Below, in pieces: positions 3,175 to 38,981 of a stretch of 64,000 bases of DNA (position 1 is its first letter; each line of letters begins with the position of its first letter). Position numbers and translations under genes: made by a program. Source of the stretch: Desulfosudis oleivorans (lineage in GTDB: Bacteria > Desulfobacterota > Desulfobacteria > Desulfobacterales > SURF-7); the NCBI GenBank assembly GCA_020723325.1, contig DYJD01000010.1, forward strand, positions 124,001-188,000. The letters are read 5' to 3'. The notes beneath the pieces were generated by a model. It was not told the DNA's origin. It saw only the letters and a program-made list of their open reading frames with translations, and did not search any database.

Positions 3175-3321
3175 TATTACCATTCAACTTTGCCCTTTGA
3201 GCTTTCACCTTTTCCCTTTGAACTTAGAGCTTTCATACTGCCGAGTGGGTTTGCGATGTCATTTATAGTATTTTGAATTAACAATCGATAATTGTTTTTT
3301 ACAAAATTGATAGGGGGCTAA

Positions 3322-4434: not shown

Positions 4435-4445
4435 GGAGAATATGA

Positions 4446-5456: not shown

Positions 5457-5506
5457 GTTGCACATGCCTGTAATTGTTTAATACATCTGCATGAGGGAAT
5501 CGAGCA

Positions 5507-5980: not shown

Positions 5981-5993
5981 TCTTAAAACCGCA

Positions 5994-7882: not shown

Positions 7883-7887
7883 TCGAT

Positions 7888-8856: not shown

Positions 8857-8914
8857 TTTTGTAAAATGTTGTTTTTTTGCCGGCGCATTGTTTTATCGAA
8901 AGCCGGGCTTATAA

Positions 8915-13941: not shown

Positions 13942-13974
13942 GGCCAAGTTGTATTAAGATCATGAGAAAACGCC

Positions 13975-15960: not shown

Positions 15961-15976
15961 TTGATAGGAAATAATT

Positions 15977-16228
15977 ATGTCGGAACAGATTTGCGAAGAA
16001 GTACTGGTTTTTATTTGCCGAAATTTCATTGTTGAAAAAAGTGAAATAAATCTAGATGAGTCCCTGATTGACCAGGGGATAATCGACTCATTCGGTTTAG
16101 TTGAAATAAACGCTTTTATAAATCGTGAATATGGGATTACAGTTAAGGAAGAGGAAATGAATCGCGATAATTTCGGTTCAGTGAATAAGATAGTCGGCTT
16201 TATTGAAAGACGAAGGATATCGAAGTGA
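15977..16228 (+). CDS. Free-standing acyl carrier protein
   Basis: 83 aa, four-helix carrier protein with the phosphopantetheine attachment motif IIDSFGLVEI (Ser about 37-38). AGGAAA precedes the ATG. It starts 16 bases after the asparagine synthetase gene and overlaps the PP-loop gene, so the three form a tight operon unit. It may carry the acid that the neighbouring amidotransferase or ATPase modifies. The partner cannot be told from sequence alone. Confidence 0.92.
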   Translation: MSEQICEEVLVFICRNFIVEKSEINLDESLIDQGIIDSFGLVEINAFINREYGITVKEEEMNRDNFGSVNKIVGFIERRRISK

Positions 16229-17277: not shown

Positions 17278-17318
17278 CAAGGTTCGGAAATATGTATTGA
17301 AAATCAACCGGTAACAAA

Positions 17319-20300: not shown

Positions 20301-20612
20301 CTATCTGAAATATGGGCAGAAGTTTTGGGGCTTGACCGGGTCGGAGTAAAAGATAATTTTTTTGACATGGGCGGTACCTCAATGCTTGTCATGCAAGTTA
20401 AGATTTTGATTTATGGGCGGTTGAAAGTCGATGTCCCGGTTATAAGGCTTTTTCAATTCCCCACGATTAACACACTCGCGAATTTCATTAGAAACAATGC
20501 TGCGGTCTCCACGGAGCATGTGAAAATTCAGGCAAGGAAGCAGAAAGATGCCTTGAGCAGGCAGAAACAGCATGCGCTGATGGCAAGGAAGGTGAAGCGG
20601 AATTCAAAATGA
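17319..20612 (+). CDS. NRPS module C-A-PCP, predicted glycine-activating
   Basis: 1097 aa. The condensation domain spans about residues 25-460 with HHIVSDLQT. The adenylation domain spans about 490-980 with IIFTSGSTGQPKG, LSFDIAGLE, NMYGPTETT and NNKIDRKALP. The PCP (about 990-1060) has MGGTSML at its Ser (about 1018). Aligning by hand to GrsA gives the pocket code D-I-L-Q-L-G-M-V-W-K, close to the code known for glycine. No epimerase or methyltransferase domain is present. The Lys/Gln-rich C-terminal tail nearly repeats that of the upstream NRPS. It overlaps the PKS gene by four bases (ATGA). The ATG at 17319 has no strong ribosome-binding site; in-frame ATGs at 17337 and 17346 are alternatives. 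Confidence 0.92.
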   Translation: MILDNEMNYMVLSDGKLPINKIHGKSSISVPASLIQRQFWLLHQMYPESSAYNISSIFRITGLFNVAILQKSLNTIIRRHEIFRTTFSETHDGLMQIIAPECDSDISVKVAEGVFADREIDTMIKQEISRPFKLNEGPLIRSFVLKISEEFHLLIITFHHIVSDLQTKDTFGEELSSIYNALSINEDSLLSMPEYQYRHFSEWQIKWSQDEDCRKTLAFWEQELTEVHSVIELPINFQRPVIATFNGGAVELELNRELTEKLSLFCRRETTTDFLILFTAWVALLHRYTQKTSFAVGVPMTNRRKANYKSIMGCFVNILPITVDLSGNPSFSEAMKRLRMRMLAAHRHQETPLELIFKRAGIRRDPAYNPLFQTGFTFEHPMRLSFSGLQVESLYYHHGGSQLDLFATFWKSGERLRGVFEFNSDLFDRTTVERMTEHFLVIVSASLDNPEWKISNLPIMNELEFRRITSEWNDTACDIPDVKGIHRFIERQAQFTPTQTAVVCSSESLIYQELNQRANRLGRYFRSLGIPSNSPIGICIERSCDMLVAVLAVLKAGGAYVPLDPDFPPERISFMIRQTAMPIICTKSNLAGKITSGNARLVELDTEHDAIEKMESVDIADFDSCMDSLAYIIFTSGSTGQPKGVEITHGALLNFLLSMHREPGLTKDDVLAAVTTLSFDIAGLELFLPLFVGARVIIVPNEILSDGEQLSRLIQEHNVTCMQATPTTWRLIIAAGWKGSKDFRALCGGETFPPDLARELLLRTGGLWNMYGPTETTVWSTCCRITDADRQIPIGRPISNTKAYVLDTMLNPVPIGVWGELYIGGKGLAKGYHKQPDLTHEKFIVHHLAEGRLYKTGDLCRYRADGMLEFGCRVDNQVKVRGFRIEPGEIEAYLRTLSTIKDALVIAVEDAQGTRHLVAYVVLKEGRSLTVEELRSHLDNLLPKYMVPSIFVPLERLPLTPNNKIDRKALPDPWSNRLSVGTDFLPPSSDFEKELSEIWAEVLGLDRVGVKDNFFDMGGTSMLVMQVKILIYGRLKVDVPVIRLFQFPTINTLANFIRNNAAVSTEHVKIQARKQKDALSRQKQHALMARKVKRNSK

Positions 20613-23600
20613 GTGTCGAAAATTATCAATCAGAAGATTCCGTGGAAGGAGTCGCGATCATTGGAATGGCAGGCCGTTTTCCAGGAGCGGATAATGTGGA
20701 AGAATTCTGGCAAAAATTAGTCGACGGCGTATCCTCCATATCCACTTTTACCGATGAAGAGTGTATTCTTTCCGGAGTACCGAAATATTTACTTAAAAAT
20801 CAAAATTTTGTAAAAAGAGGAGCTGTTGTAAAGAGTCCCGACCTTTTCGATGCCCGTTTTTTCGGATACAGTCCCAGAGAAGCCCGCTATATGGACCCTC
20901 AGCAACGAATTTTTCTCGAGTGTTCATGGGAAGCACTTGAAAATGCAGGCTATGATTCGGAGGAATACGAAGGAACTATCGGCGTATATGCTGGGTGCGG
21001 CATCAACAATTATCTCCTGAAAAATCTTCTTTCTACGTCTCCGCAAATGGAATCGGTTGTGACGCCCATGACATTTTTCGGAAATGAAAAGGATTTTCTA
21101 ACCACCCGTGTTTCGTACCTCTTGAACTTAACCGGTCCCAGCATCGGCATTCAGACCGCCTGTTCCACTTCACTGGTTACCATTCAGCTCGCCTGTCAGG
21201 GACTCCTTACATATCAATGCGACATGGCTTTAAGCGGGGGCATATCGCTGCAGGCTCCCAGAATGAAGGGATATTTGTATACGGAAGGGCAGATATTGTC
21301 ATCCGACGGTTATTGCAGGGCTTTTGACAAGGAAGCGTCCGGAACCATTTTCGGTGAGGGTGTCGGAATTGTGGTTTTAAAAAGGCTTGAAGACGCGTTA
21401 AAAGACAGGGACACAATCTATGCCGTGATCAAGGGGGTTGCGGTTAATAACGACGGATCGGATAAGGTGGGATACACCGCGCCTAGCGTCAACGGACAGG
21501 CTGCGGTAATCGCAATGGCTCAGGCATTGGCAGGAGTCAATCCGGATGACATCAGCTATATTGAAGCGCACGGAACCGGAACGCAACTTGGTGATCCGAT
21601 GGAAGTGGCCGCGTTAACTCAAGTCTTTCGAGAATCAACCGATAGAAAAGGTTATTGCGCTATCGGTTCCGTCAAGCCGAATATCGGGCATTTGGATGTG
21701 GCGGCCGGTGTTGCGGGACTTATTAAAACCGCTCTCGCAATCAAACATAAAAAAATCCCCGCTTCGCTTTTTTTTCATGAAGCCAATCCTGAACTGAAGC
21801 TTGATACCAGTCCTTTTTATGTAAACGATAAGCTTGTCGAATGGAAGACCAACGGTAAGCCGCTCCTGGCCGGGCTGAGTTCTTTCGGTATCGGGGGAAC
21901 AAATTCCCATGCGATTCTTTCTGAAGCCCCTCCGGTGGATTCAACGATTTCCTCCAAGCCGTCATTTCTTCTTCTGCTTTCAGCTAAAACAGAAACGGCG
22001 CTGGCAAAAATGACGGAGAATTTAATCAATCATTTCAGGAAACAGCCGAATATCAATCTGTCCGACACAGCATATACCTTGCAGACAGGACGGCGTCATT
22101 TCAAGCACCGCCGCATGATTGTCTGTGGAAATACGGACAATGCGATAGCATTGTTTGAATCATCAAACTCAAAAAGGGCTCATACCGGAATCCTGCCGGA
22201 AAAAAAGAAAGACGTGGTTTTCATGTTTACCGGCCAGGGTTCCCAATATGTCGACATGACAAAGGAGTTATACCGAAAGCTCCCTGTCTTCAAGGAAGAA
22301 CTGGACCGCTGCGCCGATATCCTGATCCCCTTTCTGAACCTGGACCTGCGAAATCTCCTTTATCCGGAGGAGAGTAATATCAAGCGATCAGAGGAACTGC
22401 TTAAGGAAACTTCCATTACCCAGCCGGTCCTGTTTTCAATTGAATATTCCCTGGCAAAATTCTGGATAAGCTGTGGTGTGGTTCCACAGGCGATGATCGG
22501 TCACAGCATCGGTGAATATGTGGCTGCATGTATTTCCGGAGTTTTTTCGCTGAGCGAAGCCCTGGAGCTGGTTGCGATGCGGGGGCGTCTGATGCAGATT
22601 CAGGAGCGGGGTTCCATGCTGGCAATACTGCTTCCGGAAGAGGATGTAAAAACCTTGATACATGATCGGTTGTCGATTGCGGCCATCAACAGCCCTGCGC
22701 AATGTGTCGTGTCCGGAACAGAGTATGATATCGAAAAATTGCAGGAAACTCTATCTCAACCGTCTGCCGATGGAAAGAAAATGGTACGATGTCAGAAGTT
22801 GGAAACATCCCATGCTTTTCATTCCTGGATGATGGAACCCGTAATTAGACCATTAATGGATTTTTTGAAAAAAATTGAACTTCGGGCTCCTGAGATACCG
22901 TTTATTTCCAATGTCACCGGTACATGGATCACCAGGGGTCAGGTTACCGATCCTGCCTACTGGTCGACCCATCTCCGGCATACCGTGCGGTTTTCCGACG
23001 GGATCAAAGCCCTGATCGCAGAATCGGATAAGATCCTGCTTGAACTGGGGCCGGGAATGGTGCTGACATCGCTTGCTCGGCTTCATTTTAACCAGGATAC
23101 CACTTCCATCGCATTACCTTCCGTTCGCCGGAGTGTTGAAAAAGAAGCGGATTACGCTTTTTTACTGAAGACGCTCGGGCATGTATGGATCGAGGGCCAA
23201 AAAATAGACTGGAAAGGATTTTACCAGGATGAAAGCAGGATGCGTATTCCGCTTCCAACCTATCCATTTGAGCGTGAAAGTTATTGGATCGATGCTGCTG
23301 TAAAACCGACCGGGGATGAACGTATTGCCGGTTCATCGGTTTACCGGAGCATTCTATTTAAAGTGCTTTCCAAAGCGCCCGGTATAAAGAGATGGTTCCC
23401 AACAGATGTTTCTGATCCGTCGAAAGCGGCGGATACCGTAACTACATTGGATGGAATGGATGGGGGCGTACGAATCAACGCCGTTGATGATATTGAAAGG
23501 AAATTGGCTGGAATCTGGAAAAATGTACTTGGCGTAAAAACACTGTCCAGGGACGACGACTTTTATGATCTGGGAGGCCATTCCCTGATTGCTGCGCAAG

Positions 23601-24568
23601 TATTTGCGGAGATCGAGTCTGTTTTCGGAAAAAGCATACCATTATCAACATTGTTTCATTCGTCGACAATCGCCAGGTTGGCTGATGTTCTCCGGGAAGA
23701 GAATACGGACAAGTTATGGTCATCCCTGGTTCCAATACGATCAACCGGGTCCCGGCGTCCGATATATCTTGTTCACGGCGCGGAGGGAAATGTATTGTTA
23801 TATCGTTCACTGGCGCATTATCTGGGTGAGGAACAGCCGGTATACGGATTGCAGTCGGCCGGGCTGGACGGGAAAGAGGATTTTGATCCCAATTTTGAAA
23901 ACGTTGCCGCAAGATATATTCAGGAGATTAAAAAGGTGCAACCGGAAGGTCCGTATAATCTGGGGGGGTATTGCCTGGGCGGTACAATCGCACTGGAAAT
24001 GGCGCGGCAGCTCATTACTCTGGGAGATAAGGTGATTTTTTTGGGAATGATTGAAATATACAATATTCAGACGTTAAAGTGGCCGTTTTCTTTATATGTG
24101 AGAATCTTTAACTACTTCCTGAACATCTGGTACCATTTTCTGAACCTGGTCTCGTCTGAAAATGACATGAAGATGCAATTTTTTATGGAAAAATTTCAAG
24201 TGGAGATGAATCGGTTCAGGGTGCTGAGGCAGATTGGTTATGCCAAATTTTTAAGACTTATTGGAAAAGATTCGGGCAAGAAGTTTCACCACCTTCGAGT
24301 GGACAAGGAATATGACCGGGCGCTGGAATACTATATTCCGGAAAAATACCCAGGTAAAATCAACGTTTTTGGAACGAAAACCCTTCCTCTCGGTTTCACG
24401 GATACAGAGACATATGGATTTGGCGTGATAGCGGAAAAAGGTGTGGCGATGCATATTATCCCGGTTTATCCGCGCGGAACCCTTATCGAGCCATATGTTA
24501 AAATACTGGCGGAAAAAATTGGAAACTGCATGAAGGAGGCGGCGGAGGAATATTTAAAATCGCCATAA
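20609..24568 (+). CDS. Type I polyketide synthase KS-AT-ACP-TE, malonyl type
   Basis: 1319 aa, no reductive domains. KS about 13-440: active Cys in IQTACSTSLV (about 185), His in EAHGTGTQLGDP and KPNIGHLDVA. AT about 535-860: FTGQGSQY, GHSIGEYVA and HAFH (about 735), the last indicating malonyl-CoA. ACP about 955-1030: LGGHSLIAA (Ser about 990). TE about 1050-1310: GGYCLGG, with Cys instead of Ser as nucleophile. The TE position usually holding the catalytic His (GDH) reads VYP, and the acidic position reads IEIY, so its triad looks altered. It should extend the peptidyl intermediate by one two-carbon unit, keep the beta-ketone and release the product. Confidence 0.93.
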   Translation: MSVENYQSEDSVEGVAIIGMAGRFPGADNVEEFWQKLVDGVSSISTFTDEECILSGVPKYLLKNQNFVKRGAVVKSPDLFDARFFGYSPREARYMDPQQRIFLECSWEALENAGYDSEEYEGTIGVYAGCGINNYLLKNLLSTSPQMESVVTPMTFFGNEKDFLTTRVSYLLNLTGPSIGIQTACSTSLVTIQLACQGLLTYQCDMALSGGISLQAPRMKGYLYTEGQILSSDGYCRAFDKEASGTIFGEGVGIVVLKRLEDALKDRDTIYAVIKGVAVNNDGSDKVGYTAPSVNGQAAVIAMAQALAGVNPDDISYIEAHGTGTQLGDPMEVAALTQVFRESTDRKGYCAIGSVKPNIGHLDVAAGVAGLIKTALAIKHKKIPASLFFHEANPELKLDTSPFYVNDKLVEWKTNGKPLLAGLSSFGIGGTNSHAILSEAPPVDSTISSKPSFLLLLSAKTETALAKMTENLINHFRKQPNINLSDTAYTLQTGRRHFKHRRMIVCGNTDNAIALFESSNSKRAHTGILPEKKKDVVFMFTGQGSQYVDMTKELYRKLPVFKEELDRCADILIPFLNLDLRNLLYPEESNIKRSEELLKETSITQPVLFSIEYSLAKFWISCGVVPQAMIGHSIGEYVAACISGVFSLSEALELVAMRGRLMQIQERGSMLAILLPEEDVKTLIHDRLSIAAINSPAQCVVSGTEYDIEKLQETLSQPSADGKKMVRCQKLETSHAFHSWMMEPVIRPLMDFLKKIELRAPEIPFISNVTGTWITRGQVTDPAYWSTHLRHTVRFSDGIKALIAESDKILLELGPGMVLTSLARLHFNQDTTSIALPSVRRSVEKEADYAFLLKTLGHVWIEGQKIDWKGFYQDESRMRIPLPTYPFERESYWIDAAVKPTGDERIAGSSVYRSILFKVLSKAPGIKRWFPTDVSDPSKAADTVTTLDGMDGGVRINAVDDIERKLAGIWKNVLGVKTLSRDDDFYDLGGHSLIAAQVFAEIESVFGKSIPLSTLFHSSTIARLADVLREENTDKLWSSLVPIRSTGSRRPIYLVHGAEGNVLLYRSLAHYLGEEQPVYGLQSAGLDGKEDFDPNFENVAARYIQEIKKVQPEGPYNLGGYCLGGTIALEMARQLITLGDKVIFLGMIEIYNIQTLKWPFSLYVRIFNYFLNIWYHFLNLVSSENDMKMQFFMEKFQVEMNRFRVLRQIGYAKFLRLIGKDSGKKFHHLRVDKEYDRALEYYIPEKYPGKINVFGTKTLPLGFTDTETYGFGVIAEKGVAMHIIPVYPRGTLIEPYVKILAEKIGNCMKEAAEEYLKSP

Positions 24569-25219: not shown

Positions 25220-25344
25220 TTCTTGGTTTTAAATTTCGATCAAACAAATCAATGAAAAATCTCTAGCAGGTTAAGGGGGAATATTCAATTATAAAATAAA
25301 TTTTTATGACTTTATATGAAGGAATATCAACAGGAGGGAATACT

Positions 25345-26658
25345 TTGAATATCAGTATATTCGGTTTAGGATATGTAGGTTCTGTCGGTCTGGGATGCCT
25401 GGCCAAAAACGGGCACAGGGTAATTGGTGTTGATCTTAGTGAAGCAAAAGTCAATGCAATCAATAACGGCGAATCTCCGATAGTGGAAAAGGATATTGAC
25501 AAAATCATCGCGGAACAGCATAAAACTGGCAATATCGAAGCCACGCAAGACAGTAGATATGCGGTGCTCAATACCGATGTCTCTTTTATCTGTGTTGGAA
25601 CCCCTTCAACGCCAAACGGCCATCTCAATTTAAGTGCGATTTTTAAGGTCGCTGGGGAAATCGGCAAAAGTATAAAAGAGAAAAACCGCTTTCATACTGT
25701 TGTGATTCGATCAACTGTCCTGCCTGGAACAAATGAAACGGTCACAAAAATCATTGAAGAAGTTTCAGGAAAGGAAAGTGATAAAGATTTTGCTATTGTA
25801 TCCAATCCTGAGTTTTTACGAGAGGGAACAGCGGTCCATGACTATTTTAATCCACCCTATACGCTTATAGGTTCCAGCAGTACAAAAGCCGTTGAGATCA
25901 TGAAAGAGATTTACAGTGGATTGGAATCGCCGGTTATTGTTACAGAAATCAAGATTGCGGAATTAATGAAATATGTAAATAATTCCTTTCACGCGGTAAA
26001 AATAATTTTTGCAAATGAAATCGGAAATATATGTAAAAAGCTGGGGATTGATTCCCATAAGCTGATGGAGATATTCTGCCTGGATACAAAATTGAATATA
26101 TCTCCATACTATTTTAAACCCGGCTTTGCTTATGGCGGATCTTGCTTGCCAAAGGATTTAAAGGCATTGTGTACGGTCGCGCATGACAACTACCTGGATA
26201 GCCCTCTGCTGGACAGCATTGATAAAAGCAATGAAGGGCAGAAAAAAATCGTTCATGATCAGATACTTGCATTTAAGAAAGATAAGATCGGCTTTCTTGG
26301 GTTGAGCTTTAAAGCCGGTACGGATGATCTCCGGAATAGTCCCATACTGGATATTATTGAACGCTTATTGGGCAAAGGATTCAATCTGAAGATCTATGAC
26401 AGAAATGTTCGGTTTTCCCAACTCATGGGAGCCAACAGGGAATATATTTTGAAGAAAATTCCATATATATCGAAATTCTTGATCGATGATCCGGATGACC
26501 TGATCAGGAGTTCAGAGGTTATTGTGGTTGTGAACAACAGCAGCGAATTTAAGGATATTTTAAACCAAGCTCCGGCAAGTACCATTATTTATGACCTGGT
26601 GAACCTGGATTTCAAGAAAAAATCGGAAGCGGAAAATTACATCGGGGTGGCGTGGTAA
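25345..26658 (+). CDS. algD: GDP-mannose 6-dehydrogenase (AlgD-like nucleotide-sugar dehydrogenase)
   Basis: Oxidises GDP-mannose (or a close nucleotide sugar) to the uronate with two NAD+. Motifs: Rossmann SIFGLGYVGSVGLGCLAKNGH, GKSP-like NNGESPIVEKDI, and catalytic Cys in YGGSCLPKDL (about residue 270). The start is set at TTG 25345 because AGGAGG lies seven bases upstream and the fold begins at once; this gives 437 aa, the AlgD length. A longer reading from ATG 25306 would add 13 residues without a ribosome-binding site. The acidic sugar would enter the EPS. No alginate polymerase genes are seen, so this does not by itself mean alginate. Confidence 0.9.
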   Translation: MNISIFGLGYVGSVGLGCLAKNGHRVIGVDLSEAKVNAINNGESPIVEKDIDKIIAEQHKTGNIEATQDSRYAVLNTDVSFICVGTPSTPNGHLNLSAIFKVAGEIGKSIKEKNRFHTVVIRSTVLPGTNETVTKIIEEVSGKESDKDFAIVSNPEFLREGTAVHDYFNPPYTLIGSSSTKAVEIMKEIYSGLESPVIVTEIKIAELMKYVNNSFHAVKIIFANEIGNICKKLGIDSHKLMEIFCLDTKLNISPYYFKPGFAYGGSCLPKDLKALCTVAHDNYLDSPLLDSIDKSNEGQKKIVHDQILAFKKDKIGFLGLSFKAGTDDLRNSPILDIIERLLGKGFNLKIYDRNVRFSQLMGANREYILKKIPYISKFLIDDPDDLIRSSEVIVVVNNSSEFKDILNQAPASTIIYDLVNLDFKKKSEAENYIGVAW

Positions 26659-27848
26659 TGAAAAAACATATTTTATTTATCGTGGAAAATAACTCTGTTC
26701 CCCAGGATATCAGGGTATGGAATGAAGCCCAGGCGGCAAAGGAATTCGGGTATGAAGTTTCAGTAATATGCCCCAAGTGTGGTAAGAATTCGCCGTGGTA
26801 CGAGAAATTGGACGGGATATCCATTTACAGACATTTCAGGCCCGTAGAGGCGTCAGGAAAGCTAGTCTTTTTGATCGAATACGGAAATGCGATAATCTGG
26901 GAACTGCTGTTGAGCCTGTTCATTTTCATCAAAAAACCATTCCATATCATCCATTCTGCCAATCCGCCTGACCATGTTTTTATTATTGCGCTTTTCTATA
27001 GATTTCTAGGAGTGAAATATATTTTTGATCAACATGATATATGTCCTGAAAATTATTTGGCAAAATTTGCGCGAAAAGATATATTTTATAAACTGATGTT
27101 GCGCATGGAGAAATTGAATTTCAAAATCGCCGATATTGCGATCACAACCAATGAGAGCTATAGAAAAATTGCTATTACACGCGGTGGAAAAAATACGGCA
27201 GACGTTTTTGTTGTGAGAAACGGGCCGAATTTATCCAAAGTGATTTTTATGGAGCCGAATAAAAAATTAAAGGAAGGCTTCGATTACCTTATTGCTTATG
27301 TGGGTGTGATCGGAAACCAGGAAGGGATTGATAACCTGCTGAGGGCAATTCAGTACATCGTTTATCAAAAAAACCTTCACAATATCCGGTTTATTGTCAT
27401 CGGGACCGGACCACACTGGTGGAATATGGTTCAGCTTTCCAGGGAAATGAATCTGGAAAAATATGTTCATTTTACTGGGTATATTCCTTATAGGGATTTT
27501 TATGAGATACTTGCAACCGCTGATGTATGTGTCAATCCGGAGCACCAAAACGAATTCACGAACAGATCCACTATGTTGAAGATCATGGATTACATGGTTA
27601 TGGGAAAACCCATTGTCATGTTTGAAACCATTGAAGGGAAAGTAACCGCATGTGAGTCTGCTGTTTGCATCACCGATAATAATGATATTGATTTTGCGGA
27701 AGCCATCATTGCGCTTCTAAATGATTCGGAGCGCAGAAAGAAAATGGGCGAGATAGGGCGGAAAAGAGTTGATGAAAAATTGAACTGGGATAAACAAAAG
27801 GTAAATTTGAAACGGGCATATGATCATTTGGAGAATATGGAGAGATAA
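26658..27848 (+). CDS. Glycosyltransferase, GT4 family
   Basis: GT-B fold retaining glycosyltransferase. The N-terminal half begins HILFIVENNSVPQDIRVWNE, an opening typical of EPS/teichuronic-type GT4 enzymes. The nucleotide-sugar half shows YVGVIGNQEGIDNLL, FTGYIPYRDFYE and a C-terminal region with DYMVMGKPIVMFE. The ATG at 26658 overlaps the AlgD-like stop (TAATG) and follows GGGGTGG; a GTG two codons earlier is less likely. It probably adds one sugar to the lipid-linked EPS repeat unit in the cytoplasm. Confidence 0.9.
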   Translation: MKKHILFIVENNSVPQDIRVWNEAQAAKEFGYEVSVICPKCGKNSPWYEKLDGISIYRHFRPVEASGKLVFLIEYGNAIIWELLLSLFIFIKKPFHIIHSANPPDHVFIIALFYRFLGVKYIFDQHDICPENYLAKFARKDIFYKLMLRMEKLNFKIADIAITTNESYRKIAITRGGKNTADVFVVRNGPNLSKVIFMEPNKKLKEGFDYLIAYVGVIGNQEGIDNLLRAIQYIVYQKNLHNIRFIVIGTGPHWWNMVQLSREMNLEKYVHFTGYIPYRDFYEILATADVCVNPEHQNEFTNRSTMLKIMDYMVMGKPIVMFETIEGKVTACESAVCITDNNDIDFAEAIIALLNDSERRKKMGEIGRKRVDEKLNWDKQKVNLKRAYDHLENMER

Positions 27849-29014
27849 TGGGAGATGATGTAAAAGCAATACTGGCAAAAAGTATTGAAAAATTGCAGAA
27901 ATGGATCGAGGATCACAATTATAAAGGGTATGAAGCATTTGATGGTTTATCATCGTTTTTAAAACCTCTAACCTTTGGAAATCTTTTTTTAGAGCGGATT
28001 TTACAGCAGACAGTCCGCCAGAGTCCGATAAATCTAAGACCTCTCTTTGGTATAAAACCCCTGGAATCCACAAAGGGAAGGGGATATATTGCTTGGGGCT
28101 ATCTGAAAATGTATCGGCTCACCGGAAAAGAGGAATATAAGAAAAAGGCGATAGAATCACTTGAATGGCTAGATAAAAACAAGTCACCTTTTTACACTAA
28201 ACATAGCTGGGGTAATCATTTTGAATATTCTGCACGGGGAGGCCGAATACCGAAATATGAGCCGACCATAGTCTGGTCAAGCTTAATAGGCCAGGTATTC
28301 CTGGATGCATATGAATTGTTTGAAGACGAAAAATATCTGAAAATCGCGATTAGCATTTGTGGATGGATTCTCGACTTACCCCGGTTACAGGCAGATACAG
28401 GTTTATGTCTAGGTTATACTGCTCTTGGAGGGGAGTCAACAATTCATAACTCCAATATGCTTGGGGCAGCGATGTTGGCAAGAACAGCTAAAATTTCCGG
28501 GAATACAAAATCATTAGAAATTGCAAAAGAAGCCATGAAGTACAGTTGTGCCGACCAACTCCCGGACGGAGCATGGTATTATGGCGCTGCATCGATGTTT
28601 CATTGGATAGATAACTTTCATACCGGTTATAATTTGGATAGCCTCAAGTGTTATATGGAAAATACGGGGGACCAGGACTTTAAAGATAGCCTTGAACGTG
28701 GATATAGGTTTTTCAAGGATCATTTTTTTGAAGAATCCGGAAGGCCGAAGTATTATCACAATCGCGCCTATCCTATCGATATACAGTGCGCTTCACAGGC
28801 AATCGATACTCTTACAATGTTTTCCGATCAGGATGACTCTGCCCTAGAGCTGGCACAGAAGGTTGCAAAGTGGACCATTGATAACATGCAGGATCGGACA
28901 GGTTATTTTTATTATCGAATCTTACCCTTGAAAAAAGTGAAAATTCCAATGATCCACTGGGGTCAGGGTACTATGTACAAAGCGTTATCCAATTTGTTGC
29001 TCAAACTTAACTAG
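27848..29014 (+). CDS. Predicted (alpha/alpha)6-toroid protein, glycoside hydrolase/lyase-like
   Basis: 388 aa without a signal peptide. It consists of repeating helix hairpins with aromatic-rich loops (GYIAWGYLKMYRLTG, SWGNHFEYS, FHWIDNFHTGYNLDSLKCY, IHWGQGTMYKALS), which is the look of six-hairpin glycosidases and polysaccharide lyases. Genes like this in EPS clusters are often named after an unrelated porphyrin enzyme in databases; nothing here supports that name. It starts one base into the preceding GT stop (TAATG). Catalytic residues cannot be assigned. A role in trimming or modifying a polymer precursor is inferred from its place. Confidence 0.7.
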   Translation: MGDDVKAILAKSIEKLQKWIEDHNYKGYEAFDGLSSFLKPLTFGNLFLERILQQTVRQSPINLRPLFGIKPLESTKGRGYIAWGYLKMYRLTGKEEYKKKAIESLEWLDKNKSPFYTKHSWGNHFEYSARGGRIPKYEPTIVWSSLIGQVFLDAYELFEDEKYLKIAISICGWILDLPRLQADTGLCLGYTALGGESTIHNSNMLGAAMLARTAKISGNTKSLEIAKEAMKYSCADQLPDGAWYYGAASMFHWIDNFHTGYNLDSLKCYMENTGDQDFKDSLERGYRFFKDHFFEESGRPKYYHNRAYPIDIQCASQAIDTLTMFSDQDDSALELAQKVAKWTIDNMQDRTGYFYYRILPLKKVKIPMIHWGQGTMYKALSNLLLKLN

Positions 29015-31225: not shown

Positions 31226-32146
31226 ATGGATATCAAAAAAGAAGAATATATTTTGAAAGGCAAGCCGATCAGTATTGATGTGATGATAGTTGATGATAGG
31301 GAAATCATTATAACCGGTAACTATATAAAGATAGGGAAAATTAAGGAAGAATGGGATGAAGATATTGAAGATCCGAAATCATTTTTAGAAAAAATAAAGG
31401 ATTCAGGCATCAAGGCAGATATTTTTACTTTCATGCAAAGACTGCCTGAATCTAAACCAAAATTTAGTTACTACATGGAGTGGGATAATGTTGCGGCTTT
31501 GCCGATCACTACTTATGAAAATTGGTTTTATAACCAGATTCATAGAAATCATAGAAATAAAATAAAGCTTGCGGAAAAAAAAGGGATAACGGTGAAACAG
31601 GTACCGTTTAGCGATGAGCTAGTGAGAGGGATCACAGATATCTATAACGAGACATCTGTAAGACAAGGTAGACCATACTGGAATTATGGAATGGATTTCG
31701 ATCTGGCAAAGAAGGAAAATTCCTTTTTTATGGATCGATCTGATTTTATTGGCGCCTATTATAAGGACGAGTTGATAGGGTTCATTCGAATTGTTTATAC
31801 AGATAGATTTGCAAGAACAATGGGGATACTGTCAAAGGTCGCACATCGTGATAAGGCTCCCACAAATGCATTGTTTGCCAAAGCCGTAGAAATATGCGCC
31901 GAAAAAAAGATTCCCTATATTGTGTACGCAAAATTTGATTACGGCAAACTCGGCAGTGACACATTAATGGATTTTAAGCGCTATAACGGTTTTGAAAGCA
32001 TCATCCTTCCACGCTATTACATTCCATTATCCACCAAAGGAAAAATCGGATTGAAGCTCCATCTGCATCTCGGTGTTATTGGACTGCTCCCTGAAAAATT
32101 AGTGAGAATATTACGGCATTTTAGAAACAAATGGTATTCTAAGTAA
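31226..32146 (+). CDS. FemAB/GNAT-like protein, function unknown
   Basis: 306 aa. The region WFYNQIHRNHRNKIKLAEKKG followed by DELVRGITDIYNETSVRQG and DFIGAYYKDELIGFIRIVY has the layout of FemAB-like aminoacyl/acyltransferases (a basic helix, then a GNAT core). No signal peptide. It is the second such protein in the locus (compare 6851-7882) but is not a close copy. It may add an acyl or aminoacyl group to a sugar or lipid intermediate; the sequence does not show which. AT-rich like its neighbours. Confidence 0.65.
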   Translation: MDIKKEEYILKGKPISIDVMIVDDREIIITGNYIKIGKIKEEWDEDIEDPKSFLEKIKDSGIKADIFTFMQRLPESKPKFSYYMEWDNVAALPITTYENWFYNQIHRNHRNKIKLAEKKGITVKQVPFSDELVRGITDIYNETSVRQGRPYWNYGMDFDLAKKENSFFMDRSDFIGAYYKDELIGFIRIVYTDRFARTMGILSKVAHRDKAPTNALFAKAVEICAEKKIPYIVYAKFDYGKLGSDTLMDFKRYNGFESIILPRYYIPLSTKGKIGLKLHLHLGVIGLLPEKLVRILRHFRNKWYSK

Positions 32147-32177: not shown

Positions 32178-33233
32178 ATGAAAACGATATCTATTAAGCA
32201 GAAAGGCCTTTCCAGCTTTTTCTCAAAAATTCCAATGCCGGTATTAGCGCGATTAGCGCGTGTAAATTTCATTATTCCATACTATCATATGGTTAGTGAT
32301 GATGCGGTTCCGCACCTGACTTATTTGTATGACTATAAAAATGCCAAACAGTTTGAGGCCGATATTGATTTCCTTTTAAAAAATTATTTACCGATCAATA
32401 TTTTTGATACTCTTCATAGCTTAAAAAATGAAAGTCCACCTACTGAAAAATCTTTTTTATTAACTTTTGATGATGGCTTTCGGGAAATGTTTGAGATTGT
32501 TGCCCCAATCCTTTTAAAGAAAGGAGTTCCGGCAACTTTTTTCATTAGCAGCGGTTTTATCGATAATGAAAATTTATGCTATCAGCACAAAGCAAGTCTA
32601 TTGGCGCATCATTTTCCGGCAAATGATTTATTTTCAGACTCGTTGAAAAGAGTAAAAGAAATATTACTCGATAACAAGGTGAGTTCCGGAGATATCAAAT
32701 CATCTGTTTTGTCGATTAAGTACCGGAATAAGGAAATAATTGATGAAATAGCCAAAGAGGTACATATTGATTTCAATGATTATTTGAAAAAAAAGAAGCC
32801 GTATCTTACATCGCAACAAATTGAGGAAATGATAACGAAAGGATTTGCTTTTGGAGCTCATAGTATTGATCATCCACTATATGCATCGCTCTCATTGAAG
32901 GAGCAGATATACCAGACTACTGAGAGTGTTCGATTTGTAAAGGAGAGATTTAATTTGCACTATGGTGCATTTGCCTTTCCGCATAACGATTTCAATGTGT
33001 CGAGTGACTTTTTTGAAAGTATATACAACAATGGCCTCTTGGATATCTCTTTTGGTACAGGGGGTATGGCTACCGATAGTTGTTCGAATAATTTTCAGAG
33101 AATTAGTTTCGAAAAGCCCTTGATGCCTGCGGAAAAAATATTACCGGTACAATATGCAAAAAGAATTTATCAAATTGCTCGAAAAAAAGACAGGATTATA
33201 AGAAAAAATTACCATGCAGAAAAAAAAATTTAA
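32178..33233 (+). CDS. Polysaccharide deacetylase (CE4, NodB fold)
   Basis: 351 aa with the classical motifs: FLLTFDDGFREMFE (motif 1, TFDDG), FGAHSIDHPLYASL (motif 2, HS-x2-H metal ligands) and FAFPHNDFNVS (motif 3 region). No clear secretion signal. It would remove N-acetyl or O-acetyl groups from sugar units. It is the second NodB-like protein in the window and the more canonical of the two. Confidence 0.88.
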   Translation: MKTISIKQKGLSSFFSKIPMPVLARLARVNFIIPYYHMVSDDAVPHLTYLYDYKNAKQFEADIDFLLKNYLPINIFDTLHSLKNESPPTEKSFLLTFDDGFREMFEIVAPILLKKGVPATFFISSGFIDNENLCYQHKASLLAHHFPANDLFSDSLKRVKEILLDNKVSSGDIKSSVLSIKYRNKEIIDEIAKEVHIDFNDYLKKKKPYLTSQQIEEMITKGFAFGAHSIDHPLYASLSLKEQIYQTTESVRFVKERFNLHYGAFAFPHNDFNVSSDFFESIYNNGLLDISFGTGGMATDSCSNNFQRISFEKPLMPAEKILPVQYAKRIYQIARKKDRIIRKNYHAEKKI

Positions 33234-33252
33234 TTGGTATAGGAGAGTTTAG

Positions 33253-35076
33253 ATGCCGGGAATTTGCGGAATCATCAGCAAAGCGCCTGCTGAAGAAAAT
33301 AGAGAAAAATTAAACATCATGCACCGATGTATGCTGCATGAAAATTTTTATAACTCCGGGACCTTTGTTGATGAAAAAGTTGGTCTATATGTCGGATGGG
33401 TGTGTCATGAAGGATCATTTTCGGATTGCATGCCGGTAACGAACGAAAAAAAGGATCTTGTATTGATATTTTTCGGAGAGAATTTTGTTGATCTTGAGAT
33501 TTTTGATCAGCTTAAATCCAAGAACCATAAGTTTAATCGTACAAACGCAGATTATTTAATACATTTATATGAAGAACTGGGTGAAAACTTTTTCGCTTTT
33601 CTAAATGGATGGTTTAACGGAATTTTACTGGATTTGAAGGAAGAGAGAGCGACTTTATTTAATGATCGCTTTGGAATGCAAAGAATTTACTATCATGAAA
33701 GCAGGGATACTTTTTATTTTTCTTCTGAAGCAAAATCTCTGCTTAAGGCGCTTCCTCAGCTTCGAGAAATAGATATGAGAAGCCTTGGAGAATTTCTTTG
33801 CTGCAATGCTGTATTAAACCAAAATACCCTGTTTAAAAATATTTTTCTTCTGCCTGCCGCATCTGCATGGACTTTTAATAAAAACGGCATTCACAGAAAG
33901 CAATATTTCAAACCGGATACTTGGGAAAAGCAGCCTTTGCTGGAAAAAAAATTCTTCTACGACAAGCTTAGAGATACATTCACAAATATTTTACAGCGGT
34001 ATTTTCGTTCAGAACAAGGCATTGGAATTTCACTAACAGGCGGTTTAGACACACGTATGATAATGTCTTACATGGATGCACCACCAGATAAATTTCCCTG
34101 TTACACGTTTGGAAGTATTTATCGTGACTGCAATGATGTTAAGGTCGCTCGTATTGTATCTAAAGTCTGTAAGCAGACACATCATGTTATTCAACTGGGG
34201 AATGAATTTTTAACGGAATTTGAAAGATTTGCCGAGAAAACTGTCTACATCACAGATGGTTATCTTGATGTAAGCGGATCACCGGAAATATATGTGAATA
34301 AATTGGCTAGAGAAATAGCCCCAATCCGAATGACCGGTAACCATGGCAGCGAATTGTTTAGAAATGTAAGATGGCTTAAGGCGTTTTACCCAAATGATAA
34401 ACTTTTCCATCAAGATTTTAAATATCATCTATCAGAAGCTATTACCACTTATAATAATATTAAAATAAGCAATCCGCTGACTTTCACTCTTTTTATGGAA
34501 TCACCGTGGCATGAATATAACCGGCTTGCAAGTGAACAGTCACAGTTGACTCTTAGAACACCATATCATGATAAAGATCTAGTTGGACTGATGTATCGGG
34601 CACCCGGTGAACTGCGGAATAACAAAGAAATTTCTCTAAAACTCATCGCCGATGGTAATCCAGCATTACGAGAAATAATGACAGATCGGGGAGTTGGTGG
34701 AAAATTAAATCCTATCTTTTCGTTTATTCCGCGCTTATATCACGAATTTTTTTTTAAGGCAGAATATTATTATAACTACGGGATGCCGCAATGGCTTTCC
34801 ATTTTTGACTACATACTCAAACCTTTCCATATAGAAAAGTTTTTTTTAGGGCGGCATAAATTTTATCATTTCCGGGTATGGTACAGAGATCAGCTATCAA
34901 AATACGTTCGTGAGATTTTATTGGATGAAAGAACTTTAAAGCGCCCATATCTGAAAAGAGATTTCCTAGAACATATTGTAAATAGCCATACAGCAGGTTG
35001 CCGAAATTATACAACTGAAATTACTAAAATGTTGACAGTAGAACTTATACAAAGGCTTTTGATTGAGAACCGGTAA
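33253..35076 (+). CDS. Degenerate asparagine-synthetase-like protein
   Basis: 607 aa with the AsnB two-domain layout, but altered active sites. The N-terminus is MPGICGIISK, so the residue after Met is Pro and the catalytic Cys2 of the glutaminase is absent; AGGAGA at 33241-33246 fixes this start. The PP-loop reads ISLTGGLDTRMIMSY instead of SGGxDSS. Recognisable AsnB parts remain: FFGENFVDLEIFD, FNDRFGMQRIYYHES, FYFSSEAKSLL. Probably unable to hydrolyse glutamine; it may use free ammonia or another amine, or catalyse a different adenylation-type reaction. It sits between a deacetylase and an O-antigen ligase-like gene. Confidence 0.8.
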   Translation: MPGICGIISKAPAEENREKLNIMHRCMLHENFYNSGTFVDEKVGLYVGWVCHEGSFSDCMPVTNEKKDLVLIFFGENFVDLEIFDQLKSKNHKFNRTNADYLIHLYEELGENFFAFLNGWFNGILLDLKEERATLFNDRFGMQRIYYHESRDTFYFSSEAKSLLKALPQLREIDMRSLGEFLCCNAVLNQNTLFKNIFLLPAASAWTFNKNGIHRKQYFKPDTWEKQPLLEKKFFYDKLRDTFTNILQRYFRSEQGIGISLTGGLDTRMIMSYMDAPPDKFPCYTFGSIYRDCNDVKVARIVSKVCKQTHHVIQLGNEFLTEFERFAEKTVYITDGYLDVSGSPEIYVNKLAREIAPIRMTGNHGSELFRNVRWLKAFYPNDKLFHQDFKYHLSEAITTYNNIKISNPLTFTLFMESPWHEYNRLASEQSQLTLRTPYHDKDLVGLMYRAPGELRNNKEISLKLIADGNPALREIMTDRGVGGKLNPIFSFIPRLYHEFFFKAEYYYNYGMPQWLSIFDYILKPFHIEKFFLGRHKFYHFRVWYRDQLSKYVREILLDERTLKRPYLKRDFLEHIVNSHTAGCRNYTTEITKMLTVELIQRLLIENR

Positions 35077-35125: not shown

Positions 35126-36487
35126 ATGCCTCCTCAAATAGCATTTTTGCTGTGTATTATATTTATCATTTTCCTTTTCAGAAGTGATTTTAAGCGAAAG
35201 CCTTATGTGTCCTATGCCTTGTGGGTGCCTTTTATTTGGATACTGATTGCTGCATCAAAGCCTTTATCGATCTGGTTGAATTTTGGTGTCCCTGTGTATT
35301 TTGAAAATCAAGAGCAGTATTTGGAGGGTAGCCCAACCGACAGATCATTTTTATTGCTTCTTATATTGGTGGGTTTTACGATTCTTTTTAAAAGGCAATT
35401 GGAGTGGTCAAAAATTTTCAGAAATAATAAGTGGATATTTTTTTATTTCACCTATTGCGGAATCAGTACGCTTTGGTCTGATTATACGTTTGTATCTTTT
35501 AAAAGGTGGATAAAGGAGATCGGGAATTTTACAATGATTCTGATTATTCTTACCGAACATGATCCTATAGAAGCCTTTAAAACAACTTTTAGAAGATTGA
35601 CTTATATTGTTGTTCCTTTTTCAATTGTATTTATAAAGTATTTCCCGGCTGTCGGAAGAGCTTTCAGCCGAGCCGGAGAAACCATGTATACAGGTGTTAC
35701 AGATCATAAGAATTCTCTTGGTGTTTTATCTTTCATATGTTTTACAGTGTTCTTTTGGAATTTGCAGTCAATTCGGAAAAATAAAAATAGCCATAAATAT
35801 GAAATTTGGATTCATACTTTATTTTTATTCTTGATAGCCTGGTTGCTGATAAAAGCCCAGAGCGCAACCGCCTTATTATGTACTATTATCGGTGTTATTT
35901 TTCTTGTAGGATTTGATTGGTCGATTATAAGAAAAAATGTAAAATCAATAAGTATTTTTATAGTGATAACAATATGCATTTTTACTTTTCTGCAATATTC
36001 TATGGAGATTCTTCAATTTATTGTTGTTGATCTTTTAGATCGAAACCTCACATTAACAGGCAGAACGAATATTTGGGAAGAGCTTCTCTTGATAGGTACT
36101 GACCCATTAATTGGCTCCGGCTATGAGAGCTATTGGCTTGGAGACAGAGTTAATGCATTGAAAGCGAGATATGTTTTTAATCTCAATCAAGCGCACAATG
36201 GATATTTGGAAATTTATTTGAACCTTGGCGGGATTGGCCTTTGTTTCTTCATCATGTTCATTGTGGCTGCTTATAAAAGCATTTCGAATAAGCTGCCTTA
36301 TGATTTTCATTATCAAAAGATTCGAATAACCTTTCTGGTGATCATTCTGCTCATAAACATTACCGAAGCATATTTTAAAGGATTAAGTCTATCATGGGTT
36401 GTTTTACTCCTTATTGTCACAGAAACAACCGTGGCAGCTCCGGAAACAGAGAATATTCAAATTAAACACCGGAAACAATATTCATAA
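35126..36487 (+). CDS. O-antigen ligase/Wzy-like membrane protein (Wzy_C)
   Basis: 453 aa with about eleven hydrophobic segments. The large periplasmic loop carries the family motif region LTGRTNIWEELLLIGTDPLIGSG and LNQAHNGYLEIYLNLGGIG (about residues 305-375), with FSRAGETMYTGVTDHKNSLG earlier. In an EPS locus such a protein either polymerises repeat units (Wzy) or ligates them to a carrier (WaaL). The presence of a flippase, chain-length protein and initiating transferase suggests a Wzy role. Confidence 0.88.
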   Translation: MPPQIAFLLCIIFIIFLFRSDFKRKPYVSYALWVPFIWILIAASKPLSIWLNFGVPVYFENQEQYLEGSPTDRSFLLLLILVGFTILFKRQLEWSKIFRNNKWIFFYFTYCGISTLWSDYTFVSFKRWIKEIGNFTMILIILTEHDPIEAFKTTFRRLTYIVVPFSIVFIKYFPAVGRAFSRAGETMYTGVTDHKNSLGVLSFICFTVFFWNLQSIRKNKNSHKYEIWIHTLFLFLIAWLLIKAQSATALLCTIIGVIFLVGFDWSIIRKNVKSISIFIVITICIFTFLQYSMEILQFIVVDLLDRNLTLTGRTNIWEELLLIGTDPLIGSGYESYWLGDRVNALKARYVFNLNQAHNGYLEIYLNLGGIGLCFFIMFIVAAYKSISNKLPYDFHYQKIRITFLVIILLINITEAYFKGLSLSWVVLLLIVTETTVAAPETENIQIKHRKQYS

Positions 36488-36594: not shown

Positions 36595-38154
36595 ATGAAA
36601 AATTCAAGCGACAGGATAAAATCATATGAAAAATATTTCAATACAGAACCTTTAAAATACGGTTTGAAAAAGAAGGCGGCAGTAGGAGCCGGCCTGACTA
36701 TTTCTTCCAGGGTATTAGATTATATTATCTCTGTAGGCGGGACGATTATCCTCGCCAGGCTACTCACTCCTGATGATTTCGGACTTGTAACCATGGTGAT
36801 GACTGTCAGCCTTCTGTTACGCAATTTTGGTGTAAACGGTTTTCCGGAAGCGATTATTCAAGAGGAGACAATTAATCATAAGCAGTTAAGCACTCTATTC
36901 TGGATACATTTGGGGATAAGCGTAGCATTGGCAATTGTATTTGTTATCTCTGCACCGGCCATTATCTGGTTTTATAATGAACCCAGGCTTGAACCAATCA
37001 TCTATGTAATGTCTATTTCCATTATTTTTCCCTGTTTTTCTACACAACACACCGGTTTGCTAAAAAGGACCATGCAGTTCACAAAGTTTACTGTCAATGA
37101 AGTTGTTTCTACTCTTGTCAGCACAGTTGCAGGAGTTATCATGGCGCTGTATGGGTTTGGATATTGGGCAATTGTTGTGAGAAGAATGGCTATACCTGCA
37201 TCCTCCGTAGTCGGAGCGTGGATATTATGTAGATGGCGGCCCGGGTTACCTTCAAAAAAAGCAAATGTGATGAAAATGGTGAAGTTTGCATTTCATACAT
37301 ATGGGAATTTTATTACCTATTATTTTTCAAAAAACATTGATACTATCCTTATCGGAAAATTTTTCGGTTCCGCTCCTCTTGCAAATTATGACAGGGCTTA
37401 TCATCTTTTTGTCATGCCGGTTAACCAAGTCACTTCTCCTCTTTCTAGCGTAGCATTGCCGATTTTGAGCAGATTGCGTGATGATAAGGAAAGATTTGTA
37501 CGATATTATTTAAAATCATTATCTCTGATTTCATTCGTCGGTATGGCCATAAGTGCAATCATAACACTGATAGGTAAAGATCTTGTTCTTCTGCTGTTAG
37601 GGCCGAAATGGGATATTGCGGCACTTATATTTACGCTATTTGGTCCGGGTATCGGGATGATGCTTGTCTATGATACACATGGCTGGCTGCATCTTTCGCT
37701 GGGTACCGCAGACCGTTGGTTTCGATGGGGGATTTTATCGGTTATCATAACGATTTGCTGTATTGTCATCGGGTTGAAATTCGGAGCAACGGGTGTTGCA
37801 GCCGGAATGTCGGTATCTTTTTACATTCTGGTTTTTCCAGGATTGTGGTATGGGGGCAGGCCGATGAATATAAAGCTGTCAGACATTATAGGTTCAGTAT
37901 GGAAGTATTTTATTTCAGCGGTAGCCGCAGGGGGTTTATGTTGGTATCTATTATACTTTTTTAATCTAGTTTCTGAAATCTATCTATCATTAAACATTTT
38001 GATCAGAATGACTGTCTCCTCCATTTTTTTTATCATCCTGTATCTCTTAGCGGTCGTTGTTTTATATCAAAGTTTAGAGCCGATATCGCAGCTTTTATCT
38101 ATTATTAAAGATATGGTTCCCAAGTTTGCCAAAAACAAGCAGGAAAGATCATGA
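36595..38154 (+). CDS. Wzx-like oligosaccharide flippase (MOP superfamily)
   Basis: 519 aa, about 12-14 membrane helices. The start of the membrane part VGAGLTISSRVLDYIISVGG followed by LARLLTPDDFGLVTMVM is typical of polysaccharide flippases of the Wzx/PST group. It would move the undecaprenyl-linked repeat unit across the inner membrane. The gene follows the ligase-like gene by 107 bases. Confidence 0.93.
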   Translation: MKNSSDRIKSYEKYFNTEPLKYGLKKKAAVGAGLTISSRVLDYIISVGGTIILARLLTPDDFGLVTMVMTVSLLLRNFGVNGFPEAIIQEETINHKQLSTLFWIHLGISVALAIVFVISAPAIIWFYNEPRLEPIIYVMSISIIFPCFSTQHTGLLKRTMQFTKFTVNEVVSTLVSTVAGVIMALYGFGYWAIVVRRMAIPASSVVGAWILCRWRPGLPSKKANVMKMVKFAFHTYGNFITYYFSKNIDTILIGKFFGSAPLANYDRAYHLFVMPVNQVTSPLSSVALPILSRLRDDKERFVRYYLKSLSLISFVGMAISAIITLIGKDLVLLLLGPKWDIAALIFTLFGPGIGMMLVYDTHGWLHLSLGTADRWFRWGILSVIITICCIVIGLKFGATGVAAGMSVSFYILVFPGLWYGGRPMNIKLSDIIGSVWKYFISAVAAGGLCWYLLYFFNLVSEIYLSLNILIRMTVSSIFFIILYLLAVVVLYQSLEPISQLLSIIKDMVPKFAKNKQERS

Positions 38155-38246: not shown

Positions 38247-38981
38247 ATGGTCATTAGCAAAAAATATAAATACTGTTTTATTGAATATCCAAGAAGCGCT
38301 AGTTATGCAATTCGTCATGAACTTTTAGAATTTTACAGTGGAGAAGACTGGCTTCACAAACATGCACGGTATAAAGATTTCGTGAACTCTCTTCCAAATG
38401 AATATAAAGACTATTTTATTTTTTGCAGCATTCGCAATCCGATGAGAGATATTATTTCAATTTACAATATCAACCGAACGAATAGTTCTGGCAGAGCCAA
38501 ACCTGAATTCTGGAAAAATTACAAATGGTATATTCGAATACATGAGTTAAGAAGAGCTAGGTTTTTTGATAATAATCCAGATACAAGTTTTCAAACGTTT
38601 TTCAAACAACTTTTCATATTACCCTATATTAAGCCTAGAATAATAGCCGAATTGTCTATGGAAAGGTATAATTATATTATACGCGTAGAGAATTTACAGG
38701 AAGATTTTTCTGCTGTATTAAAGAAAATGGGCATACAACAGGTCCAACCGGTTCGCTCCTACAACGTATCAACCAGGCAAGAATTAGATTTGGATGAATA
38801 TTATCCTGAAGAGTTGCGTAAAAAAGCTGTAAGAATATTAGGTCCGATGATGAACTTTATGGGGTATAATTTTCCTGAAACCTGGAATGTAAAACGAATA
38901 CCGGCCAGCAGCAGATTGTATTTTAGCATTTTGAAACCTGCTGCAAAGTTTTTTTGGAATTATATTAGCTATGCAAAGTAA
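38247..38981 (+). CDS. Sulfotransferase-family protein
   Basis: 244 aa. The N-terminus YCFIEYPRSASYAIRHEL fits the 5'-phosphosulfate loop, and FIFCSIRNPMRDIISIYN fits the 3'-phosphate-binding motif (RxP...S) of PAPS-dependent sulfotransferases. YNYIIRVENLQEDF in the C-terminal half is also typical. It probably sulfates a sugar of the EPS. GAGGAG upstream supports the start. No signal peptide. Confidence 0.8.
   Translation: MVISKKYKYCFIEYPRSASYAIRHELLEFYSGEDWLHKHARYKDFVNSLPNEYKDYFIFCSIRNPMRDIISIYNINRTNSSGRAKPEFWKNYKWYIRIHELRRARFFDNNPDTSFQTFFKQLFILPYIKPRIIAELSMERYNYIIRVENLQEDFSAVLKKMGIQQVQPVRSYNVSTRQELDLDEYYPEELRKKAVRILGPMMNFMGYNFPETWNVKRIPASSRLYFSILKPAAKFFWNYISYAK

Follow-up and report, generated by a model that had tools for sequence, protein, structure and literature searches.

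A predicted glutaminase-dead asparagine-synthetase-like class found with a FemAB/VimA-like partner family in an exosortase-type polysaccharide locus

AsnB-like genes are frequent in surface-polysaccharide loci. In Porphyromonas gingivalis, one report assigns VimE (a putative deacetylase), VimA (FemAB-like) and WbpS (AsnB-like) to the making of 2-N-seryl, 3-N-acetylglucuronamide, which bears a seryl substituent at C-2 and is amidated at C-6, and describes VimA-related genes elsewhere that adjoin exosortases and TIGR03108-type AsnB genes (PMC7468200). A deacetylase, a FemAB-like transferase and an AsnB-like protein are likewise encoded together in the window analysed here, a stretch of 64,000 nucleotides from Desulfosudis oleivorans in which the features given below, those of the closing paragraph aside, lie on the forward strand. 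The AsnB-like enzyme of the Wbp/Vim pathway is a glutamine amidotransferase, whereas the protein encoded at 33253–35076, judged by its residues, cannot use glutamine by the known mechanism and so cannot be one. More generally, WbpS (TIGR03108) and AsnB (TIGR01536) share with the window protein a two-domain architecture, an exopolysaccharide (EPS) or O-antigen setting and nearby FemAB and exosortase genes, but they keep the Cys nucleophile, whereas the window protein has none and also has a changed glutamine pocket, a changed Asp351 position and an arginine in its PP-loop. We argue from these positions that the protein belongs to a deep, predicted glutaminase-dead class of the asparagine-synthetase fold.

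Start codon and active-site positions of the AsnB-like protein

The gene at 33253–35076 encodes an asparagine-synthetase-like protein of 607 amino acids, assigned by translation, Pfam and tree, in which Pro2 replaces Cys2. Its translation begins MPGICG at an ATG (33253) that lies 5 bases behind a ribosome-binding site, GGAGAG, at 33242–33247, and the codon immediately before the ATG is an in-frame TAG (33250–33252), so there is no upstream start. This agrees with the earlier note, which had read the same N-terminus with Cys5 as the nearest cysteine and had named a different start that exposes a cysteine as what would overturn its reading. We rejected that alternative start on account of the TAG and because Cys5 is not conserved: most relatives carry T, I, V, A, L or F at this position, and within the core family (the ten loci described below) Cys occurs only in the window protein and L038, so a start exposing Cys5 is not a family feature. 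Pro2 occurs in every core-family member found and is therefore not a chance substitution. An ordinary glutamine-dependent AsnB with a misread N-terminus, or one that uses Cys5, could point to that cysteine in two proteins, but it faces the adjoining stop codon, the variable residue 5 and changes at the Asn74 and Asp98 positions as well, and we consider it very improbable.

Both Pfam domains of the asparagine-synthetase fold superfamily lie above their cut-offs in the window protein (PF00733, 4.8e-17, 63.1 bits against a cut-off of 21; PF13537, 1.2e-16, 61.3 bits against 25), and PF13522 also matches. The protein falls below every NCBIfam cut-off, including those of TIGR01536 (117.2 against 267.1 bits) and TIGR03108 (125.7 against 816.9 bits). 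The top Foldseek match is AsnB (1ct9, E 2e-13), obtained with a poor model (pLDDT 49.6) that rules out residue-level reading and served for the fold search only. The PP-loop reads TGGLDTR (residues 262–268; 34036–34056) in the translation and the alignment, as had been noticed before. In alignments with E. coli AsnB and with profiles, the segment TGNHGSE (residues 361–367; 34333–34353) occupies the positions of Ser346-Gly347-Glu348-x-x-Asp351-Glu352, with Asn at Glu348 and Ser at Asp351. At the positions of E. coli Arg49, Asn74 and Asp98, which we take to be glutamine-pocket residues, the window protein has W, F and N.

For human ASNS, one study models Asp367 and Glu364, here taken as the equivalents of E. 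coli Asp351 and Glu348, as the residues that hold the aspartyl group in place; the variants E364A, E364Q and D367A show no activity, D367N retains reduced activity, and Glu364 is needed for activity with ammonium (PMC6748925). By this analogy aspartate is an unlikely substrate of the window protein, because the two positions carry Asn and Ser.

Beta-lactam synthetase forms an amide without glutamine, and its Asp351 equivalent is a Mg ligand. The earlier note had proposed an alignment with relatives of this type; beta-lactam synthetase (1jgt) and the carbapenam synthetase CarA (1q15) are both in the Foldseek list obtained with the poor model. The likeness holds at the N-terminus, where beta-lactam synthetase starts MGAP and likewise has no Cys, but not at the loop and the aspartate: in beta-lactam synthetase and CarA the loop is still SGGIDSS or SGGLDSS, and the Asp of GYGAD or GYGSD and the Lys of PK or KK are retained, whereas the class of the window protein has GGLDTR or GGLDSR and mostly lacks the GYGxD Asp. 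The window protein itself has TGGLDTR and TGNHGSE in place of SGGxDSS and GYGxD. Because the two synthetases keep the ordinary loop and Asp, the class to which the window protein belongs is, by its motifs, not of their kind.

A class lacking Cys2 and carrying a PP-loop arginine

We use the label PP-loop-Arg class, coined here, for AsnB-like proteins that lack Cys2 and have Arg as the last PP-loop residue; the window protein has both traits. Among 87 unique AsnB-like frames, counted by pattern matching (which missed L103, read by eye), Cys2 is present in 68, none of which has the PP-loop Arg (0/68), and absent from 19 (16 Pro, 1 Ser, 1 Thr and 1 Val), all of which have it (19/19). The two residues thus split the AsnB-like proteins examined into two deep classes, in only one of which a glutamine amidotransferase would be possible by the known mechanism.

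A MAFFT-based survey, in which 13 bacterial class members were compared with 69 other rows (among them E. coli AsnB), extended the loss beyond the nucleophile noted earlier to further glutamine-pocket positions and to AsnB Asp351 across the class; 16 fragments of less than 540 aa or duplicates were left out, the short ones including L042 and the Pro2 fragment L050. Cys2 is found in 0/13 class members and in 68/69 other rows (the start of the remaining one is masked), Asn74 in 0/13 against 69/69, Asp98 in 3/13 against 69/69, Asp351 in 2/13 (4 of the 11 others are gaps) against 69/69, and the PP-loop Arg in 13/13 against 0/69. The Arg49 position is Trp in eight core members and Gly in one, with Arg kept in four of the 13; in the 69 other rows Arg49, Asn74, Asp98 and Asp351 are kept apart from a single exception, an Arg49. 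Class members have N, H, D or F at the Glu348 position. At the position of the catalytic Lys449, the MAFFT alignment places K in 1/13 class members, and a profile alignment places there the Lys of the core family's GRHKF motif, so that retention of this residue in the core family depends on the alignment. Because Asp351 is mostly absent and the retention of Lys449 is alignment-dependent, adenylation itself may be lost in the class.

Pro, Ser, Thr and Val at residue 2 all permit Met removal under the general Met aminopeptidase rule. Since every residue-2 type seen would allow it, the N-terminal amine, if left exposed within the Ntn pocket, could conceivably still act as a base or take part in binding, a speculation to which we give little credence.

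A species-genome scan found seven loci with identities of 47–60%, titled Terriglobia, Omnitrophota, Phycisphaerae or KSB1, and Deltaproteobacteria MAGs; each of the proteins begins with MPGI and has TGGLDTR or TGGLDSR as the PP-loop. Two of the handles, L040 and L041, are one contig filed under two MAGs, and its taxon is unsure. Searches of whole genomes also found G082, where one of two copies has TSGLDIR, as well as G451, G708 and, carrying the L036 sequence, G524; this brings the core loci to ten. A remote Pro2 member used as query found itself or relatives in 5/389 genomes, two of them already known, and the three remote members added start MPGI (L095), MTGI (L096) and MSGI (L097), each with GGLDSR. 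Four haloarchaeal plasmid proteins, titled 'asparagine synthase-related protein' in RefSeq (L101, L102, L103 and L105), lack Cys2 and start MPGI, MPGV or MVGL with a GGLDSR, SGLDSR or GGSDSR loop; they are remote, on long inner branches, and have other gene neighbours than the window class. The PP-loop core (G/S)GxD and the Arg are thus kept from bacteria to haloarchaea. A Streptomyces match examined with the haloarchaeal set is an ordinary MCGI, SGGLDSS protein. The 7.2-Mb window genome holds five further AsnB relatives, four with MCGI and SGGxDSS and a fifth (L005) with SGGIDSS and an unclear start.

In a quick tree of 84 rows, built with the trait columns retained and without L005 and L015 (start unclear or masked), one branch with SH-aLRT 98 separates 17 class members from 67 Cys2 rows; several rows, L097 and the archaeal ones, are long-branched or unusual in composition, so that their precise placement is uncertain. 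Because a single branch separates the two sets, the traits are best described as co-inherited and not as repeatedly covarying, and we read the perfect Cys2/Arg split as one ancient event followed by retention. We do not claim that Pro2 and the PP-loop Arg covary independently, since both lie on this one deep branch. The sequences sampled are weighted towards relatives of the window protein from a single order.

The AsnB-like genes are not decaying: the members tested are under constraint. For the near pair L098/L014, dN is 0.036 and dS 0.319, a ratio of 0.11 (0.18 in the Ntn part and 0.09 in the rest). Across six core members (15 pairs), mean identity is 54% in the Ntn part (residues 61–195) and 50% in the synthetase core (230–378), as compared with 52% in each for 336 Cys2 pairs of like overall identity. 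The predicted dead glutaminase domain therefore seems still to be needed for something.

Relatives of P0001 occur in 258 plasmid records, all below 60% identity, and most of the annotated ones among the matches listed are named 'asparagine synthase (glutamine-hydrolyzing)'. Searches of viral_contigs gave no confirmed relatives of either the AsnB-like (A1) or the partner (A2) family, and the plasmids searched held no match to the partner. In the open PubMed Central literature, we found no title or abstract opening naming a Cys-less AsnB class with a PP-loop Arg.

One of the two G082 copies (L043:10001–11842) combines the degenerate PP-loop TSGLDIR with GYHEY where other members have GRHKF; it may be a pseudo-synthetase that accompanies a better-preserved paralogue.

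The FemAB/VimA-like partner gene

Upstream of the AsnB-like gene, 31226–32146 encodes a 306-aa FemAB/VimA-like tandem-GNAT protein, assigned by profile, fold and synteny as a probable aminoacyl or acyl transferase. Its family (A2) is present in nine of the ten core loci: in eight it immediately precedes the AsnB-like gene, and in the window one gene intervenes; the remaining locus, L042, lacks A2 and has a different FemAB-type gene three genes upstream of its AsnB-like gene. With cut-offs of 1e-60 for the AsnB-like family and 1e-20 for the partner family, both occur in the same 2/389 genomes of an order sample and the same 4/360 genomes of a phylum sample, and never one alone; the best few candidates per genome were scored, and the samples overlap, so the counts are not additive.

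The partner matches no Pfam or NCBIfam family at 0.001, PF02388 scoring 14.6 bits against a cut-off of 24, and of five A2 members scanned with Pfam only L038 rises above a cut-off (PF13480, 30.5 against 22 bits). A profile–profile comparison of the family with eight FemAB/VimA-type proteins gave 96.6% (E 5.1e-10, 160 columns). In structure comparison, a partner model with pLDDT 59 best matched Sba18/Sbb17, peptide synthases that depend on aminoacyl-tRNA (VIA Z 14.0–13.4, rmsd about 9 (8.9 for Sba18), 200–203 residues aligned), followed by FemA/FemX (13.2, rmsd about 10) and MprF (13.0), which share the tandem-GNAT fold at 8–13% identity; Foldseek ranks FemX first. These comparisons support a predicted tandem-GNAT fold. 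Plain tandem acetyltransferases follow closely at Z 12.4, within 1 of FemA/FemX for this same model, so a FemX-type function stays putative.

The link to such a partner is weak outside the core family. A PF13480/PF02388 gene adjoins the Pro2 AsnB gene of L098, one of the five remote bacterial loci, and the stretches examined of L095, L096, L097 and the short contig L099 contain no FemAB-type neighbour. One of the four archaeal loci has such a neighbour (in L103, a PF13480 gene two genes on), and no FemAB-type gene is named among the neighbours in L101, L102 and L105. In the flanks of 40 Cys2 loci, the scan covered 128 of 133 proteins (all but four long proteins and an AsnB, the 133 being frames free of masked stretches); PF13480 and PF02388 were outside the 25 most-matched families, the last of which had 2 members, so each matches at most 2/128 proteins at 1e-5. 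A five-query search found FemAB-type genes in three Cys2 loci (L059, L068 and L071), so a FemAB gene near an AsnB gene is not unique to the class. No A2-type partner was seen outside the PP-loop-Arg class, the A2 profile scoring 18.9 bits against the L068 gene.

The window protein could also be a catalytically inactive subunit of the AsnB fold, a pseudo-synthetase whose binding of a nucleotide or nucleotide sugar would let it act as a scaffold or regulator of the FemAB-like transferase. The joint loss of Cys1, Asn74 and mostly Asp351, a dead Ntn part as conserved as elsewhere, its strict association, across the genomes searched, with a single partner family and the altered motifs of one G082 copy would all suit such a role, but the maintenance of (G/S)GxD and Arg from bacteria to haloarchaea is more than a scaffold would seem to need, and the core family keeps the Lys in GRHKF. 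We regard this inactive-subunit explanation as rather unlikely, although it is the strongest competitor to the amide-forming role set out below.

Polysaccharide locus and proposed role

The AsnB-like gene lies, as the earlier note had placed it, among EPS genes, and the locus is of the exosortase type. A polysaccharide deacetylase of the NodB/CE4 type (32178–33233; PF01522, 1.5e-15) separates the partner and AsnB-like genes in the window only and does not lie between them in the other loci. Downstream are an O-antigen ligase/polymerase-type (Wzy_C) gene (35126–36487; PF04932, 2e-10), with relatives downstream of the AsnB-like gene in 6/7 other loci compared (the L042 stretch ends inside the AsnB-like gene), and a Wzx/MOP polysaccharide flippase (36595–38154; PF13440, 1.6e-77). 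The window also encodes an exosortase (5994–6854; TIGR02602 above cut-off and 157.5 of 208 bits with the XrtA model), a FemAB protein of the XrtA/VimA kind (6818–7882; PF13480 and PF02388 above cut-off, TIGR03019 at 99.5 bits below its cut-off of 260), an ordinary Cys2 AsnB that is WbpS/TIGR03108-like (13975–15960; MCGI, SGGIDSS, TIGR01536 above cut-off, TIGR03108 at 356 of 816.9 bits) and a UDP-sugar 6-dehydrogenase (25306–26658; TIGR03026 above cut-off), a possible source of uronic acid. The window carries a canonical FemAB and Cys2 AsnB (6818–7882 and 13975–15960) plus a second, divergent set (31226–32146, 32178–33233 and 33253–35076), and on the best reading this second set, by analogy, is a divergent copy of the VimE/VimA/WbpS-like arrangement.

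This setting could also accommodate an ammonia-dependent uronamide synthase, which would carry out the WbpS reaction from uronic acid to uronamide with free ammonium replacing glutamine. The UDP-sugar dehydrogenase fits such an enzyme, as does the making of uronamides by AsnB-like WbpS (PMC7468200), but the locus already has an intact Cys2 WbpS-like AsnB, and the Glu348 position is N, H, D or F in the class, whereas the human equivalent, Glu364, is necessary for activity with ammonium (PMC6748925). We think this reading improbable.

The explanation we favour, tentatively and at somewhat less than an even chance, is that the window protein is a glutamine-independent, ATP-dependent amide-forming partner of the FemAB-like transferase in the tailoring of an EPS sugar. 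Its Ntn domain would be kept as a scaffold beside the nucleotide-binding PP-loop domain, and it would act in one pathway with its FemAB/VimA-like neighbour, probably in amino-acid tailoring of an EPS sugar or of a sugar linking exosortase-sorted proteins to EPS. The transferase (31226–32146) would transfer an aminoacyl (or acyl) group to the amine of a sugar, which the window deacetylase (32178–33233) could free, and the AsnB-like protein would activate a carboxylate, a sugar carboxylate being favoured, with ATP and join it to an amine other than that of glutamine; candidate sources are free ammonia, an amino sugar and an amino acid. The use of ATP, the activation of a carboxylate, the sugar, the amine, the product, the partner's donor and any contact between the two proteins are inferred. 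The earlier suggestion that the enzyme may modify a sugar or acyl group with a different nucleophile donor is consistent with the EPS context and the conserved FemAB-like partner, and the activity itself stays putative.

A broader version would have the class, spread over several bacterial phyla and haloarchaea, swap its glutaminase for a dedicated FemAB-type partner, the two enzymes together working as an amide ligase that links surface sugars to amino acids and the PP-loop Arg assuming the charge role of the lost Asp351 and Lys449; we give this version little credence. Should the paired transferase aminoacylate a sugar, the arrangement would show how glycans that bear amino acids can be made, and perhaps also how the sugar that receives exosortase-sorted proteins arises.

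Several other features of the window and related loci were recorded. The stretch 2563–17277 contains a group of genes similar to the exosortase and Wbp/Vim sets, encoding an EPS export protein, an aminotransferase, a Gfo/Idh-type dehydrogenase, the exosortase, the FemAB protein, the Cys2 AsnB and a WbuX-like amidotransferase. Large ORFs of 1249, 1097 and 1319 aa and a methyltransferase with a phosphopantetheine carrier domain at 8915–24568 suggest a polyketide- or peptide-synthase block in the EPS locus. The 322-aa product of 7888–8856, which has no Pfam match, is 55% identical to part of a 684-aa G082 protein (L043:681–2735) that also carries a FemAB-type domain and is possibly a gene fusion. 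A 388-aa protein (27848–29014) has sub-threshold GH88/GH76/LANC-like matches, and four other loci encode relatives of it close to their AsnB-like gene (36–79% identity among them). Downstream of the flippase, 38247–38981 has a weak sulfotransferase match (PF03567, 1.3e-4). PcRGLX-like (rhamnogalacturonan-lyase-type) proteins are encoded near the remote class members in L095 (725–3385) and L096 (4916–7558).
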